From Candidatus Lokiarchaeota archaeon (GTDB lineage Archaea; Asgardarchaeota; Thorarchaeia; Thorarchaeales; Thorarchaeaceae), in contig WJIL01000016.1 of NCBI GenBank assembly GCA_014730275.1, positions 62,001 to 126,000 of the forward strand: a DNA stretch of 64,000 nucleotides, read 5' to 3'. Positions within the stretch are counted from its first letter, which is position 1. Every line of letters begins with the position of its first letter. Positions 19,336 through 30,987 of the stretch are shown piece after piece. Below the pieces are notes generated by a model. The model was not told where the DNA came from. It did no database searches and worked only from the letters and a program-made list of their open reading frames with translations. Made by a program: the position numbers and the translations under genes.

Positions 19336-20481
19336 ATGAATTTGGCGGAAGACGAGTACTTGGGCGCGAAGCCCATTGTGATTGATAACGGTACAGGCCT
19401 GAGTAAGAACGGATACGCGGGCGAAGACCAACCCCGTAGTGTTTGGCCTACACTGATTGGCTACCCCCGATACGAGTCAATAATGACTGACGTTGACCAT
19501 TACACTCGGGACTACTACATCGGTGAAGAGGCAATCAACCTACGTGGTGTCCTTCGACTGGTATATCCTATTACCCACGGTGTGATTGATGACTGGGATG
19601 CGATTGAGAAGATATGGTCTTACACTTTCTATAATGACTTGAAGGTCGACCCCAGCGAGAATCCGGTACTGCTTACTGAAGCACCATTCAACCCACGAGA
19701 AAACAGAGAGCGCATGGCATCTGTCATGTTTGATAATTTTGGAGTTCCTGCAGTTTATGTGGCAACACAGGCTGTCCTATCACTCTACGCATCGGGCAGA
19801 ACGACAGGACTCGTTATTGACTCGGGAGATGGTGTTACTCACATTGTACCTATCTACGAGGGCTTTGCTATTACTCATGCAATCAGGCGAATCGATCTGG
19901 CAGGTCGTGACATAACGGAATACCTCCGGAGACTCCTGAGACAGCGTGGTTACACCTTCGTAAGTGGTGCAGAAAAAGAGATTGTGAGAGATATCAAGGA
20001 GAAGCTTTGCTACGTCGCACTTGATCCTGAGAAGGAAAGACAGGTTGCTGATAAGGCCGGCGTAGACAAACCGTACATGCTGCCTGACGGTGAGACTATT
20101 ACCATCGGCGCAGAGCGGTTCCAGGCACCAGAGCTCTTCTTTAATCCGAGCGCAATTGGACTTGACACCATCCCGATGGATGATCATATTGTCGAGTCAA
20201 TCAAGCAGTGTGACGTTGACTTGCGACGTGAGCTTTATGCCAACATCGTATTGTCTGGTGGTTCAACCATGTTCCCAGGTCTTAAGGAGCGACTCCACAA
20301 GGAGGTTTCCGAACAGCTACCTGAGAACCTCGAGGTTCGCATCATTGCACCTCCTGAGAGACAGTACTCAGTTTGGATTGGTGGCTCCATCCTTGCTTCT
20401 CTGAAGACCTTCCAGAAGATGTGGGTCAGCAAGAAAGAGTTCGAAGAAGCTGGACCGGAAGTCATCCACCGCTGTATCTGA
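19336..20481 (+). CDS. Eukaryote-like actin (Asgard actin)
   Basis: Cytoskeletal ATPase of 381 residues, close in length to eukaryotic actin (about 375). The phosphate loops are IDNGTGLSKNGYAG (16-29) and VIDSGDGVTHIVPIYEG (160-176). Residues Q145 and H169 match the eukaryotic catalytic Gln and His. The adenosine loop VLSGGSTMFPGL (305-316) and the C-terminus SVWIGGSILASLKTFQKMW to EEAGPEVIHR are nearly eukaryotic in wording. This sets it apart from MreB, crenactin and ParM. A Shine-Dalgarno aaggag precedes the ATG. A profilin- or gelsolin-regulated filament is expected; a gelsolin-like gene lies 8 kb away. Confidence 0.96.
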   Translation: MNLAEDEYLGAKPIVIDNGTGLSKNGYAGEDQPRSVWPTLIGYPRYESIMTDVDHYTRDYYIGEEAINLRGVLRLVYPITHGVIDDWDAIEKIWSYTFYNDLKVDPSENPVLLTEAPFNPRENRERMASVMFDNFGVPAVYVATQAVLSLYASGRTTGLVIDSGDGVTHIVPIYEGFAITHAIRRIDLAGRDITEYLRRLLRQRGYTFVSGAEKEIVRDIKEKLCYVALDPEKERQVADKAGVDKPYMLPDGETITIGAERFQAPELFFNPSAIGLDTIPMDDHIVESIKQCDVDLRRELYANIVLSGGSTMFPGLKERLHKEVSEQLPENLEVRIIAPPERQYSVWIGGSILASLKTFQKMWVSKKEFEEAGPEVIHRCI

Positions 20482-21754: not shown

Positions 21755-22456
21755 TTAGGTATCCTCACAGGCTTGTTGTATAGTTCTCGCTATAGTAGCA
21801 ACTTCCTTTGAACTATAGTGATGGTTCACCTGATGTGTTCGTACTGTATCAATCAGCTTGTTCGACCTAACAGCGACCACTGTAGGTTCCTTGGCCTCGA
21901 GTTTCATTTTTTCATTGCTGAAAACGATTAGCGGCTCAACAAAAATGCGGTTTTTGAATCGAGCGTCAAGAGTATCTGTCAGAATCTTGTTCAAATTAGC
22001 TGCATTTTTCTTAACTTGCATGCTAATACTTCGAATCTCTTTCTTACTGGCTCCCGATATCCTTGTATGATACCACTTGTCCCCGTGAACAGATAGCCTA
22101 CTGCTATAGTTTTTCACTTCTATCACAAAAATGCCGTTGGCCCCGACCAGAACATGATCAATATTCCCTTCCCGCGAATGTAAGATGACATCTTCAAGAA
22201 GGTAGTAGCTGTCATCCAATTCTTTCAGTACTTCACTCACCAATCGCTCTCCTACCATGCCTGCGTCATAGTCCGAATACTCTTTCCAGTACTTCATGGC
22301 GAGTGCCAGTATGAGGACACCTAGCAGAAAACCAACCTGTGGGACTGCAAACATGATAATAGCTCCACTAATGAGAAGAACTATCGCTCCATTGCGGAAG
22401 AATTTGGCCTTGCCTGAGAGATAAGGAAAGCTGGTTTCTTTCAGGACTTTGACCAC
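21755..22456 (-). CDS. NERD-domain membrane protein
   Basis: Protein of 233 residues with two N-terminal hydrophobic helices (about 22-55). These are followed by a nuclease-related domain: GMVGERLVSEVL, then EGNIDHVLVGANGIFVIEVKNY with the conserved Asp, Glu and Lys of a PD-(D/E)xK-like core. NERD proteins are thought to act on nucleic acids, but their roles are mostly unknown. The GTG start has a good Shine-Dalgarno aggagg seven bases upstream, and a TATA-like gattatatgag lies further up. No partner gene is evident. Confidence 0.8.
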   Translation of the reverse strand: MVKVLKETSFPYLSGKAKFFRNGAIVLLISGAIIMFAVPQVGFLLGVLILALAMKYWKEYSDYDAGMVGERLVSEVLKELDDSYYLLEDVILHSREGNIDHVLVGANGIFVIEVKNYSSRLSVHGDKWYHTRISGASKKEIRSISMQVKKNAANLNKILTDTLDARFKNRIFVEPLIVFSNEKMKLEAKEPTVVAVRSNKLIDTVRTHQVNHHYSSKEVATIARTIQQACEDT

Positions 22457-25712: not shown

Positions 25713-26702
25713 GTGAATTCAGCGGCTTGCAAGATGACTGTGAATGATGGCAAGAGTGATAGCAGTAGTTCTGGCGCAAGTAGCTCAGGCTATGTTCCAA
25801 ATCTTGCAGAGTTTTATTTTGAACCAACTCATGATTGGTCAGCAAAAGAGGCCCATATACTATACGAAGAAAAGGGGAATGAGATTCCATCAGAGCTCTG
25901 TAATCAAGTATATTATCAAGATTGTATCACCGGGATGAATGAGCTTCCTAACGAATGCATTGACCTCGTGGTTGCGGATCCACCCTTTGGGATAGATTTT
26001 GATGGCAAAAGTAGTGTCTACAATAGAAATGAGAATCATGTAGTAGATGGTTACGAGGAAATAGACGGGTCGTATTCTGAGTTTACACTCCGTTGGATGG
26101 CTGAGTTACCACGTTTACTCAAAGATCACGGGTCTGCATATGTTTTCAGCGGCTGGAGTAACTTGGAATCAGTTCTTAAGGGTGGTCGCCTAGCAGGGCT
26201 TTCCGTCCTCAACCATATTGTGTGGAAATACCCCTTCGGCGTATTTACACGAAAGAAATTCGTAACAAGTCACTATCATGTACTGCTTTTTGTCAAGAAC
26301 TCAGAATCCTATTTTTTCAACAAAATTGAGCATTATCCTCTAGACGTTTGGAATATTAAACGACGATATCGTGCAGGTCGTGCAAAGAACGGGACTCGAC
26401 TCCCTCTTGAAGTGGTCATGAGATGCATCGACTACTCTTCTCGTCCTGGAGACCTTGTTTTGGACCCGTTTATGGGCAATGGTACCACTGCTGTTGCGTG
26501 TAAAACAAACTACCGGCATTACCTCGGGTATGAAATCAATGATGAACTACAACCCATTATTGAGGATGAGCTTTCTCATAGAGATACTGGAGAATCCTAT
26601 GTCCCTTACAAGGATAGGCTTCCTTCAATAGAAGAGCTCGCCAAGAAATACCCGAAGGCGTATGAGGTTTATAGAGAACGTGAGAACCAGAAAGTGAGAT
26701 AA
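25713..26702 (+). CDS. Beta-class DNA methyltransferase (N6-adenine or N4-cytosine)
   Basis: S-adenosylmethionine-dependent DNA methyltransferase of 329 residues. The catalytic motif IV DPPFGIDF (89-96) comes before the SAM-binding motif I DLVLDPFMGNGTTAVACK (247-264), so the order is beta class. The variable region between them would read the target. A Ser-rich N-terminus (16-26) is probably disordered. The start is GTG 25713; ATG 25734 is equally plausible, with a TATA-like tattttaaag 20-45 bases before. The next gene starts 10 bases downstream and is not a recognisable endonuclease, so a classical restriction pair is not evident. Confidence 0.88.
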   Translation: MNSAACKMTVNDGKSDSSSSGASSSGYVPNLAEFYFEPTHDWSAKEAHILYEEKGNEIPSELCNQVYYQDCITGMNELPNECIDLVVADPPFGIDFDGKSSVYNRNENHVVDGYEEIDGSYSEFTLRWMAELPRLLKDHGSAYVFSGWSNLESVLKGGRLAGLSVLNHIVWKYPFGVFTRKKFVTSHYHVLLFVKNSESYFFNKIEHYPLDVWNIKRRYRAGRAKNGTRLPLEVVMRCIDYSSRPGDLVLDPFMGNGTTAVACKTNYRHYLGYEINDELQPIIEDELSHRDTGESYVPYKDRLPSIEELAKKYPKAYEVYRERENQKVR

Positions 26703-26712
26703 CAGAAAGAAG

Positions 26713-28161
26713 GTGATTAGTCTGGAGCCAAGTGACCTGCTAGAAGACTACGGGAAGTCCCGGGATAGACTAGCTGATGTTTCGGCTGATTCTGATGTTT
26801 TCAATCGGGAATTTGGCTCACAACTCACAGCCTGGGAGTATCGTTTCCATCAAGAATTCAGGCAAAGAGTTAGCGGTCAAAGGATGCGATACAAAGGTTT
26901 TGTACGGCATACGACCAATGATTCTGTTTTCCTACTTTCTCCCAGTCCCTACATGCTTGGTGGAGTTTTCGTCTATCTTTACGAGAATCAAGAGCTCCCG
27001 CCAGATGGAGCAATAGTAGAGATTGAAGGGAGAAACATAGCCGTCCCATCTCTGCTCCAGCGCTCTGATGAGACTGTGCGGGCGATTTCTGCTGATGCTC
27101 TAGAAAAGGTAGAGTTCGATCTTCTTTCCGAAATCGAGCCACCAATGTCACTCAAGAATCTCTCACGATTGCTTTTCGAAGACGTCGGAATGGCAGAGGC
27201 AAGCAAACGGGTTTTTGCCCGTCTCTTCGTATCCAGTCCCCCATATCAAGATGCGGTTGGTGGATTGGCAACAGGAATCCAAGCCATCGCTAAGAAGAAA
27301 CAGGTACGCCGTCTATTTTCATTCATGAAAAAAGCTGTTCCGCGTACTCTTCGCGGGAGCTGGCCTGTAACCAAGAATGTGCGCGGTTTGCGTGTAGCAA
27401 CACCTGACCGTTGGCGCCTTGATGTTGGTACTACGAATAAATCAAAAATCAAGAAGCTTTGTGTGGAACGGGTCGACCCCTCTGGATTTCGTGAAGTTTC
27501 CATTGGTGCCCTTACTAATCGCGAGACCGCAGCACTGCCTGATGTACCTCTGGCTTTAGCCACCGAGGATTTCTGGGTTGAAAGTACCAATGCTGAGACA
27601 TTGAGCTTGCCAATCCTCAAATCCGCTATCACCTACCAGCTTCTTACCCCGCAGATTTCCGAAGATGCGATAGAATCTGCGACTGAGCATATAGTTTCAC
27701 GTCTTCAGCTATTGCGAGACAGTTTTGGTTTTGACAGATCTGTACTTGGAAGAGGTCATCTTCTAGATGCAGACCGTATGGGACGCCCACTTAGCACAAT
27801 ACGTCTAGCACGTTCGACAGCACGGGCTAAGTGGGATACCGATGTGACTGCGAAGGATTTGAGGCGAGCTTGGGACAATGTCCTTGAACCAGCCTTGAAA
27901 GAATTCGCTGAGATTGCTGCCCTGAGGGAAGGGGCTGAAGCTGATTGGGGCAAAGGCAGACCTTTGCATCGATACAATACGAAAGTACACCGGGCTCTGA
28001 GAAAACTGGATACTGGCAAAGCCACTTCACTTGGACCGACTTTGCAGGAGATTGCTGAGGAGGCTGGTGTTGAGGTTCAAAAGGCTGCAAGAACACTAGA
28101 AGAGATGAAGAAAGACGCAGTAGTCTATGAACCGCGCTCAGGTCATTACCGGCTAGTCTAG
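26713..28161 (+). CDS. MCM-like protein lacking ATPase motifs
   Basis: Protein of 482 residues. An N-terminal OB-like section (RYKGFVRHTTNDSVFLLSPSP) precedes a region like the start of the MCM AAA+ core (LLFEDVGMAEASKRVFARLF). The lid part is recognisable: LPILKSAITYQLLTPQISED, then RPLSTIRLARSTARAKWDTD and VTAKDLRRAW. The C-terminus is an MCM-type winged helix (LQEIAEEAGVEVQKAARTLE ending EPRSGHYRLV). No Walker A (GxxGxGKS) or Walker B is visible, so ATP hydrolysis is unlikely. It is 10 bases after the DNA methyltransferase and surely cotranscribed. This is inference from motif order. Confidence 0.55.
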   Translation: MISLEPSDLLEDYGKSRDRLADVSADSDVFNREFGSQLTAWEYRFHQEFRQRVSGQRMRYKGFVRHTTNDSVFLLSPSPYMLGGVFVYLYENQELPPDGAIVEIEGRNIAVPSLLQRSDETVRAISADALEKVEFDLLSEIEPPMSLKNLSRLLFEDVGMAEASKRVFARLFVSSPPYQDAVGGLATGIQAIAKKKQVRRLFSFMKKAVPRTLRGSWPVTKNVRGLRVATPDRWRLDVGTTNKSKIKKLCVERVDPSGFREVSIGALTNRETAALPDVPLALATEDFWVESTNAETLSLPILKSAITYQLLTPQISEDAIESATEHIVSRLQLLRDSFGFDRSVLGRGHLLDADRMGRPLSTIRLARSTARAKWDTDVTAKDLRRAWDNVLEPALKEFAEIAALREGAEADWGKGRPLHRYNTKVHRALRKLDTGKATSLGPTLQEIAEEAGVEVQKAARTLEEMKKDAVVYEPRSGHYRLV

Positions 28162-28167
28162 CGAATT

Positions 28168-28791
28168 TCACATATTGGAATAGAGCTTATCTTCCTGATC
28201 CGTAACTAGACCGTGCTTGAATTCTTCAGATTCTTCCCCCTCTTCCACTATAGACACATCACGGGGCCCTATTCTTCGAGCGTCGTACCCTCTAACTATA
28301 ACCATGGGGTCTAAATTCGCTTTGTCCGCGTCTTTCCCCCTCCAGATGTAGAATTTTTCCCAAGTGTCGAGAACAAATATCCCGTCACTCTTTAGTGAAT
28401 CTTCTCGTGCGGGTACTTCTCGAAACCAGATTTCATCTTCTACCTTGTGGACCTTCCATAGTCTGTGTTCATGCCTTCGAGTAGCAACTTCTCGTACAAA
28501 ACTTTCTGCGCTTTCTCGAGTCACTCGAAAGTTGGGAAATAGCTCACGAAATTCTCGGGGTTCATGTCCTGCTGGAAGACGAAGCAGTTCGATTTCTTCT
28601 TCCTTTGTCTGTTTGAGCACTCTGGCAGCTTGGCCCAATGTATGTTCTTCTACTTCGTTTTCAGACCCAACCCAGAGATATAGCTCGTCATCTGCATCTA
28701 CCAAGTAACAGTCTCTCTTTCCGAATGCTCCTTTTCTGGGCATGCGAATGAGCCTGCCCTTGATGATGTAGTAAACAACTGCTTCCGACAT
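28168..28791 (-). CDS. Two-domain gelsolin-like actin regulator
   Basis: Protein of 207 residues from the ATG at 28791 (MSEAVVYYIIKGRL). It has two gelsolin-like domains: about 6-90 (CYLVDADDELYLWVGSENE) and about 108-190 (GIFVLDTWEKFYIWRGKDAD). Each carries the family aspartates and the W-x-G signature. Thorarchaeota two-domain gelsolins are known to bind and sever actin in a calcium-dependent way. The actin target is probably encoded at 19336-20481. An in-frame ATG at 28866 would add an unlikely N-terminal arm. Confidence 0.85.
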   Translation of the reverse strand: MSEAVVYYIIKGRLIRMPRKGAFGKRDCYLVDADDELYLWVGSENEVEEHTLGQAARVLKQTKEEEIELLRLPAGHEPREFRELFPNFRVTRESAESFVREVATRRHEHRLWKVHKVEDEIWFREVPAREDSLKSDGIFVLDTWEKFYIWRGKDADKANLDPMVIVRGYDARRIGPRDVSIVEEGEESEEFKHGLVTDQEDKLYSNM

Positions 28792-29056
28792 TCGAATCCC
28801 CGTTTTGAAATTTGCAATCTTCTGGCTTTTGTTTATGGTCCGGATATTGGACGAATATATGAACAATTCCCTTCAAGATTGCCTTCGTTGATTAGTATTT
28901 GCTACTCGTTTTATTCTAAACGAATCGTGAAGTGAACCGCGCTATATCCCATAGATTGCTTGGTAAAAACTGCTTATGCATGTATTCTGTTTCTTAGGAG
29001 CCAGAATTGCAGCAAATTGATAAGAAAAACTCTCTACAATTCATTGAGGGAATGGC

Positions 29057-29720: not shown

Positions 29721-29805
29721 GAATCGAAGATAGTCAAGTGTACTCTCACAACTAATTTATGCCCGGCTTGCATATTATATACCATTCAGGGGGTTGAAAA
29801 GACGG

Positions 29806-30987
29806 ATGAATAAGTGGGAAACTGAGTTCCTCCGCAAATTGGTTGAACTGGATACCAACAGCGTTGAGAAACTGAATTACCCTCAGTGCGCAGAAGTATT
29901 GATGGATTATTGTAAGGATGCCGGTCTAGAGGTTGAAGTATTCGATTCCGAGGACGGGGGCATATCCCAACCAAATGTTGTTGCCACTATGGATGTAGGC
30001 GCCGAGAAGACGGTTTTGCTATGTACTCACTATGACATTGTGCCTGCTGGAGAGAGAGAAGAATGGACTAGAGATCCCTTTGCTTTAACTGTTGAGAAGG
30101 GAAAGGCATACGGTAGAGGCGTTAGTGATGACAAAGGTAACGTTGTTGCTGCTGTCAGTGCGGCAAAAGAGCTTATAGCAAATGGCACTTCAAAAGTGAA
30201 TCTCAAGATACTTATTTCGCCAAATGAGGAAGTCGGCGGCGAATATGGTATTGACTATTTGATCAATGGTCCGCCAACCATCCGTGGTGATTTTGCGGTA
30301 GTTGTAGATAGTGGTCCAGAATATGTGAGCATAGGAGCTAGCGGTGTAGTTGCAGGAGCAATCACTATCAAGGGTAAACAAGGACATGCTGGTTATCCCT
30401 TTATGTTCAGAAATGCAATACACTTGTCACTACCTTTTCTGGATGAAATAATGCGATTCTCCGATGCAAGACAAAATGTCGAATCCATGGTTCCTGCTCC
30501 TCCGGGGTCACCGCATCGAAATCTCTGGGGTCGTTTCAGTATAACCATGTATAACGCAGGAACAAAAACCAACGTGATTCCTGGTAAGGCCCAGATCTGT
30601 TTCGATTTGCGCTTGATTCCAGAGGAGAAATCTGAGGATATCATTAACGAGTTTGAGACGTTCTTCGAAAGTGTAAAAGAAGAAACCTTTGTCGATGCTG
30701 ATTTGGAAATCAAGCACAAGATTGACGGCTGGTCAACGGATCCACAACATCCGATGGTTACTTCTTTCCATGCTGCTGCAAAAGAAGTAGTGTCTCCAGA
30801 TATTGCACTTTGTGGCGAACTTGGTGGTAATGATGGAACCTACTTCAGGAAAGTTGGCATACCTACTGTTTGCTATGGTGTTATAGCTCGAGACTGTAAT
30901 TTTCATGGAGTTGATGAATTCATGCGGCTAGCTGATTTTGATAAAGTGAAGAACCTACTTATCCGATTTGCAGAGACTGGTGCCTGA
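29806..30987 (+). CDS. M20-family metallopeptidase/deacylase
   Basis: Zinc-dependent amide hydrolase of 393 residues, related to ArgE, DapE and carboxypeptidase G2. Metal and catalytic residues: LCTHYDIVPAG, YGRGVSDDKGNVVA, SPNEEVGGEYG, and the late His in DCNFHGVDEF. The dimerisation domain with GKQGHAGYPF is present. The ATG at 29806 is preferred; TTG 29794 is also in frame. A TATA-like attatata lies about 30 bases upstream. Its stop overlaps the start of the next gene (TGATG). The substrate is undetermined. Confidence 0.85.
   Translation: MNKWETEFLRKLVELDTNSVEKLNYPQCAEVLMDYCKDAGLEVEVFDSEDGGISQPNVVATMDVGAEKTVLLCTHYDIVPAGEREEWTRDPFALTVEKGKAYGRGVSDDKGNVVAAVSAAKELIANGTSKVNLKILISPNEEVGGEYGIDYLINGPPTIRGDFAVVVDSGPEYVSIGASGVVAGAITIKGKQGHAGYPFMFRNAIHLSLPFLDEIMRFSDARQNVESMVPAPPGSPHRNLWGRFSITMYNAGTKTNVIPGKAQICFDLRLIPEEKSEDIINEFETFFESVKEETFVDADLEIKHKIDGWSTDPQHPMVTSFHAAAKEVVSPDIALCGELGGNDGTYFRKVGIPTVCYGVIARDCNFHGVDEFMRLADFDKVKNLLIRFAETGA

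Follow-up and report, generated by a model that had tools for sequence, protein, structure and literature searches.

The window is a stretch of 64,000 nucleotides of archaeal DNA, in which two forward-strand genes stand close together. The first encodes a DNA methyltransferase of 329 residues and the second, beginning 10 bases past it, encodes a protein of 482 residues, referred to here as Q. A third gene converges with that of Q from the opposite strand. The features of the locus and of Q are as follows:

25713..26702 (+), beta-class DNA methyltransferase of predicted N6-adenine specificity, orphan neighbour (PF01555, PDB matches, motif order)
26713..28161 (+), Q, ATPase-dead MCM paralogue, 482 codons with a GTG start (profiles, models, motif scan)
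26854..27114 (+), OB-fold domain of Q, residues 48-134, like the N-terminal OB domain of MCM (model pLDDT about 80; VIA)
27130..27612 (+), putative AAA+ core remnant, residues 140-300: strand 183-191, helix 195-208 and more strands, with no P-loop or Walker B (model, motif scan)
27283..27297 (+), site of the Walker A loop between strand 1 and helix 1, residues 191-195, motif absent (motif scan; position taken from the model)
27619..27948 (+), MCM-type AAA lid, residues 303-412 (VIA Z 8.7 to 7pfo_6, 88 aligned, 4.0 A; HHalign)
27784..27786 (+), Arg358 of Q, aligned with the MCM residue taken as sensor 2 (alignments)
27955..28158 (+), C-terminal winged helix of the archaeal MCM type, residues 415-482 (PDB 2m45_A, E 8.1e-6 by profile; PF21120)
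28168..28866 (-), gelsolin-like gene, convergent with Q and a steady neighbour, outside the proposed mechanism (PF00626, E 1.1e-17; 21 of 25 wide loci)

The methyltransferase matches PF01555 (E 4.7e-35), and its closest PDB matches are 8urk_A (E 3.5e-28) and CcrM, 6pbd_A (E 9.7e-24). In its translation motif IV, DPPF, precedes motif I, DPFMGNGTT, and this order places the enzyme in the beta class. A DPPF motif goes, as a rule, with adenine specificity, which may therefore be expected of this enzyme. No restriction endonuclease was found beside it, in that no nuclease family was matched above cut-off by the neighbours 24884 and 25279, Q or the gelsolin-like protein; the Csm6-HEPN match of neighbour 24884 (E 0.09) lies below the family cut-off. 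Gene orders around the methyltransferase vary across ten other loci, and inspection by eye of their ORF lengths and of the first residues of the proteins revealed no restriction gene. The first-pass annotation of this DNA had described a gene placed 10 bases after a beta-class methyltransferase, and the coordinates and strand of both genes as well as the enzyme class were reproduced. Promoter and terminator scans of the locus, which use bacterial patterns, gave matches at chance level only.

Two other genes of the region deserve mention. An actin gene lies at 19336-20481 (+) (PF00022, E 9e-133), and its product is 89-93% identical where it is found in wide loci of the family. At 21755-22456 (-) there is a gene for a 233-residue protein which matches an N-terminal stretch of the PglW (E 3e-8) and MkoA (E 7e-8) defence models and is probably a NERD-type domain; it was not found in 25 wide loci of the family.

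Relation of Q to MCM

Taken as a single sequence, Q resembles MCM weakly (PF21120 E 0.058, PF17855 E 0.096, NF040949 E 0.019), the best PDB match being 8x7t_D with E 0.0027 over residues 361-482. A clearer result was obtained with alignment A1, which comprises 26 Q rows from the window's family and two other families (two of its loci, L009 and L045, are one gene). Its profile matches 8x7t_D (7.7e-6), 2m45_A (8.1e-6) and 4fdg_B (2.4e-5) in the PDB, all over the end of the lid and the winged helix. HHalign of A1 against 15 Asgard MCMs, a comparison of the kind that the first-pass annotation had proposed for the 482-residue protein, gave a probability of 96 and E 4.8e-9 over residues 361-480 only; a global HHalign was left out because it forces the alignment. 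In the reverse direction, a profile of Asgard MCM C-termini searched against 847 ORFs matched, with E < 1e-3, 122 of the 129 ORFs that represent Q and 4 further non-Q ORFs, all from loci fetched for MCM C-termini. Some loci overlap, so that the same gene can be counted more than once among the Q ORFs, of which 52 are distinct. The Q profile run against the genomes of the phylum likewise matches Asgard MCM C-termini, down to E 7.1e-9. At E <= 10 the MCM model NF040949 is matched by 16 and PF21120 by 10 of the 26 A1 rows; winged-helix families besides MCM also match Q rows, and PF08784 matches some. At the level of sequence, the descent from MCM of the lid end and winged helix, that is of the last 120 residues, is established by matches significant in both search directions.

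For the remainder of the protein the evidence comes from predicted structures. The model of full-length Q (mean pLDDT 60, pTM 0.42) has a good OB fold at residues 49-134 (pLDDT about 80), a poor middle, and then the lid and winged helix. In a Foldseek search of the PDB, rows 1-22 all came from MCM-containing entries, the best being 8b9d_4 (E 2.8e-5). TM-scores to MCM entries stay around 0.2, a low value for which poor placement of the domains relative to each other is the probable cause. In VIA, which is a second look at Foldseek's rows, the full model scores highest with unrelated winged-helix proteins (Rio2 at Z 9.2), and the winged helix of Q likewise reaches Z about 9 with winged helices unrelated to it, this being a common fold. 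OB folds are common too and not specific to MCM. The OB domain of Q reaches Z 8.6 with the MCM chain 8w0f_D (80 aligned, 4.0 A), and rows for SSB and PriB tie with it at Z 8.8-8.9.

A second model, covering residues 130-412 and built from 48 rows, has a mean pLDDT of 63.9 and a pTM of 0.53, with core pLDDT of about 46-73. It presents a strand, a helix and further strands, a succession compatible with an AAA+ core. Foldseek listed 50 matches (best 9nuk_A, E 1.2e-5, TM about 0.4) and VIA likewise 50 (Z 7.6-8.9, 168-252 residues aligned), and every one of them was an MCM entry. Since the lid is included in this model, the MCM-only matches are support rather than proof for the core. HHalign of the middle region alone (alignment A3) against MCM was weak, E 0.022 over 26 columns, so the MCM identity of the core rests on the models. 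The models support the presence in Q of an OB fold and of a putative remnant of the ATPase domain. The middle stretch, of 283 residues, keeps its length in most rows of the family.

The catalytic motifs of MCM are missing. Neither Walker A nor an MCM-type Walker B was found by motif scan in any of 26 full-length or 48 middle-region rows. The SRFD arginine finger was found in none of the 48 middle-region rows and in one of the 26 full-length rows, at residue 416, outside the core. As a positive control, all 15 Asgard MCMs carry an MCM-type Walker A, the hhhhD[DE] motif and SRFD. There is also only one cysteine in the window's Q, residue 250, which leaves it without a zinc site in the N-domain. 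As read from its sequence, Q lacks the motifs for ATP-driven DNA unwinding. The OB-like N-terminus, the MCM lid with its C-terminal winged helix and the absence of Walker A and B, all claimed in the first-pass annotation, are borne out by these results. The alignment it had called for, in order to locate Walker and sensor positions, added one residue of interest, Arg358, which lies opposite an MCM residue that we take to be sensor 2. All 17 family rows of alignment A2 have this arginine; Lys takes its place in the Baldrarchaeota protein, and in the distant family f7 the residue is not kept. In MCM the sensor 2 residue acts on the ATP of the neighbouring subunit, and one may speculate that Arg358 would suit a dead subunit capping a live MCM subunit.

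Occurrence of Q and of intact MCM

Among the 227 genomes of the phylum that were searched, Q is present, whole or cut by contig ends, in all 47 genomes of the window's family (Thorarchaeota) and in 4 of the 180 others, with 34% identity in G003, the source of the Baldrarchaeota protein, and about 21% in G030, G031 and G032. The Q profile has further matches in the phylum, which fall on the C-termini of MCMs and of other winged-helix proteins. No full-length Q was found in 176 of the 227 genomes, so Asgards at large do not share its role. With a profile built around the distant members, no new full-length member appeared in the phylum among the matches listed. A scan of genome contigs with alignment A2 yielded 46 loci, with records named Thorarchaeota, Lokiarchaeota (two), "archaeon" (two) and Baldrarchaeota (one); it uses two peptide patterns, which distant non-Asgard members could escape. 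The scan of viral contigs with A2, limited to the same number of peptide patterns, gave no relative of Q, and a virus origin was rejected on this result. No literature report of Q was found; a study of Asgard replication by Feng et al. 2025, cited in PMC12993045, may describe it.

Matches to MCM domains were obtained in all 18 genomes checked, and the five family genomes among them have one full MCM gene each. That of the window's genome is a 691-residue frame (G000:C117), and a counterpart of it is seen in each of the other four. Over four comparison genomes the identity to the window's genome is 48-57% for Q versus 72-77% for MCM. The faster evolution of Q fits a partner of MCM, but would fit just as a paralogue that was set free and took on another role.

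Two kinds of frame were met in these searches. In two long frames, of 1649 and 1888 residues (G003:C21 and G031:C122), the canonical MCM matches are split up, as would be expected if these MCM genes carry inteins. Frames of about 225-230 residues (G077:C44, G078:C81, G079:C20, G056:C11, G175:C68 and others) have a C-terminal winged helix that matches the Q profile; given that some Q rows are matched by PF08784 too, these frames may be RPA32-like.

Possible roles of Q

Because the cell has an intact MCM, Q is most likely a non-catalytic partner of that MCM. The reading preferred here, to which we would give about an even chance, is that Q is an old chromosomal, ATPase-dead paralogue of the archaeal replicative helicase MCM and controls ring assembly, loading or removal. 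Q would be built like an MCM subunit, with OB fold, a collapsed ATPase domain, lid and winged helix, but without the motifs for ATP binding and hydrolysis. It would dock on MCM subunits through MCM-like surfaces and so govern how the ring is assembled, loaded or removed, in the manner of eukaryotic MCMBP. In MCM the lid and ATPase domain serve ring contacts. Contact of Q with MCM is suggested by their shared ancestry and by the fact that the dead domain has been kept entire, with hardly any change in its length; a part in ring assembly, loading or unloading is what such contact might serve. Archaeal MCM is usually described as a homohexamer of one protein. A motor-less MCM-like protein kept beside an active MCM in every sampled genome of the family suggests a regulatory subunit or chaperone.

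It is also conceivable, if on balance unlikely, that Q descends from MCM and has left it, to act as a free DNA-binding factor in repair, origin marking or transcription. OB folds and winged helices are both common nucleic-acid modules, the matches of Q to non-MCM winged-helix families and its faster evolution would agree with such a life, and neither an MCM gene nor any other known replication gene was found beside Q in 25 wide loci of its own family, a placement that also counts against the preferred reading. A free factor sits poorly, however, with a lid and an ATPase remnant kept at nearly constant length across the family. As for neighbours elsewhere, in the distant family f7 a PolB gene (L033:9344-11917, -) and a NurA-like gene (L034:7720-9654, +) lie near the Q homologue, which hints weakly at a setting of replication or repair.

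There is a slight chance that Q is a true ortholog of eukaryotic MCMBP. The profile of that family, PF09739 (MCM_bind), matched Q in none of 22 genomes, 13 of them Q carriers, with weak matches elsewhere in 3. HHalign of Q against the C-terminal half of human MCMBP, a sequence confirmed as PF09739, scored 15.3, while shuffles scored 13.6 in the median and up to 20.9; the best local match, not significant, falls on the helix after strand 1, which is the place one would point to in favour of orthology. Q ends in a winged helix, whereas MCMBP is not known to do so. The design is of the same kind in both, as MCMBP is described in PMC9018068 as MCM-like and without Walker A, but the drawing of MCMBP in that paper includes, according to its figure legend, a Walker B and an arginine finger, and Q has neither. 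Membership of Q in the MCMBP family was rejected on the negative PF09739 search and HHalign comparison.

The first-pass annotation had suggested that the methyltransferase and Q belong together, in that Q could guide methylation to replication forks or the pair could form an anti-phage or replication-licensing device. What speaks for such a device, which we regard as distinctly improbable, is that the genes share a strand with 10 bases between them here and are adjacent in 34 of the 47 family genomes. In the others they are 1.2-1.3 kb apart (4 genomes), the contig ends at Q (3) or the methyltransferase lies elsewhere (6); one of these six, G191, has only about 650 bases upstream, so clear separation with enough flank is seen in five. 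At E <= 1e-30 the methyltransferase is matched in 107 of the 227 genomes, 45 of the 47 in the family and 62 of the 180 outside; those 62 are without full-length Q, and at the same threshold the enzyme was detected in none of the four Q genomes outside the family (G003, G030-G032). Neither is it the steadiest neighbour: counted as presence in 25 wide family loci, some of them cut short, the methyltransferase occurs in 18, fewer than the gelsolin-like gene (21) and the gene at 29794-30987 (22), which makes it one neighbour in a conserved block. A role of Q within a defence system was rejected as well, since Q had no match to PADLOC defence families at E <= 1.

A comparison of co-occurrence, as suggested in the first-pass annotation, finds the two genes apart in some family genomes and, outside the family, each in genomes where the other was not detected; the device was rejected because of this distribution and of the loose linkage. 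The two genes are neighbours of long standing that do not depend on each other, and the methyltransferase probably just lies next to Q as an independent orphan enzyme. At least two copies of this orphan family occur per genome in G183, G190, G008, G081 and others, which suggests its duplication or transfer apart from Q. From the earlier proposal the degenerate MCM without ATPase motifs stands and replication licensing was a sensible direction; the tie to the methyltransferase falls, and a methyltransferase-MCM defence device is removed as a false lead.

That Q is not MCM at all, its OB fold and winged helix having been joined independently, can hardly be credited: the weakness of its single-sequence matches and the tie of its OB domain with SSB and PriB in VIA would allow it, but the domain order OB, lid, winged helix, profile matches significant in both directions and the MCM entries that alone appear among the 50 matches listed for residues 130-412 stand against it.

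Comparison with known systems

The neighbouring enzyme has its counterparts in the orphan beta-class adenine methyltransferases (CcrM; 8urk), with which it shares family, motif order and the lack of an evident adjoining restriction gene. Q itself is to be compared in the first place with the MCM helicase (NF040949, PF00493, PF17855, PF21120), which it resembles by sequence in the lid end and winged helix and by model in the OB fold and, more tentatively, in the topology of the ATPase domain. It differs from the helicase in lacking Walker A, Walker B, SRFD and the zinc site, in its length of 482 versus about 690 residues, and in being far more diverged.

The loss of an active site in a replication protein has a precedent in inactivated RecJ and CDC45 of archaea and eukaryotes, for which PMC3307487 proposes that a replication enzyme without its active site was kept as a structural part; these proteins belong to an unrelated family (DHH). 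Closer in design is MCMBP / ETG1 / Mcb1 (PF09739), likewise an MCM-like protein without Walker A kept alongside active MCMs. It has no detectable sequence relation to Q, and Q differs in ending with a winged helix and in lacking even Walker B. MCMBP of eukaryotes binds MCM subunits and promotes ring assembly, and by analogy Q may work like MCMBP though it is not classed as one. Q occurs in the archaeal lineage nearest to eukaryotes, where it offers a concrete protein for testing the origin of helicase-assembly helpers. It is doubtful, with a small chance of being right, that Q is the archaeal forerunner of MCMBP, or an ortholog so deep that the sequences no longer reveal it. Q would then be a dedicated MCM chaperone, ATPase-dead, which arose in Asgard archaea before eukaryotes; if this were true, a dead paralogue would have governed the assembly of MCM rings before there was an MCM2-7 heterohexamer.
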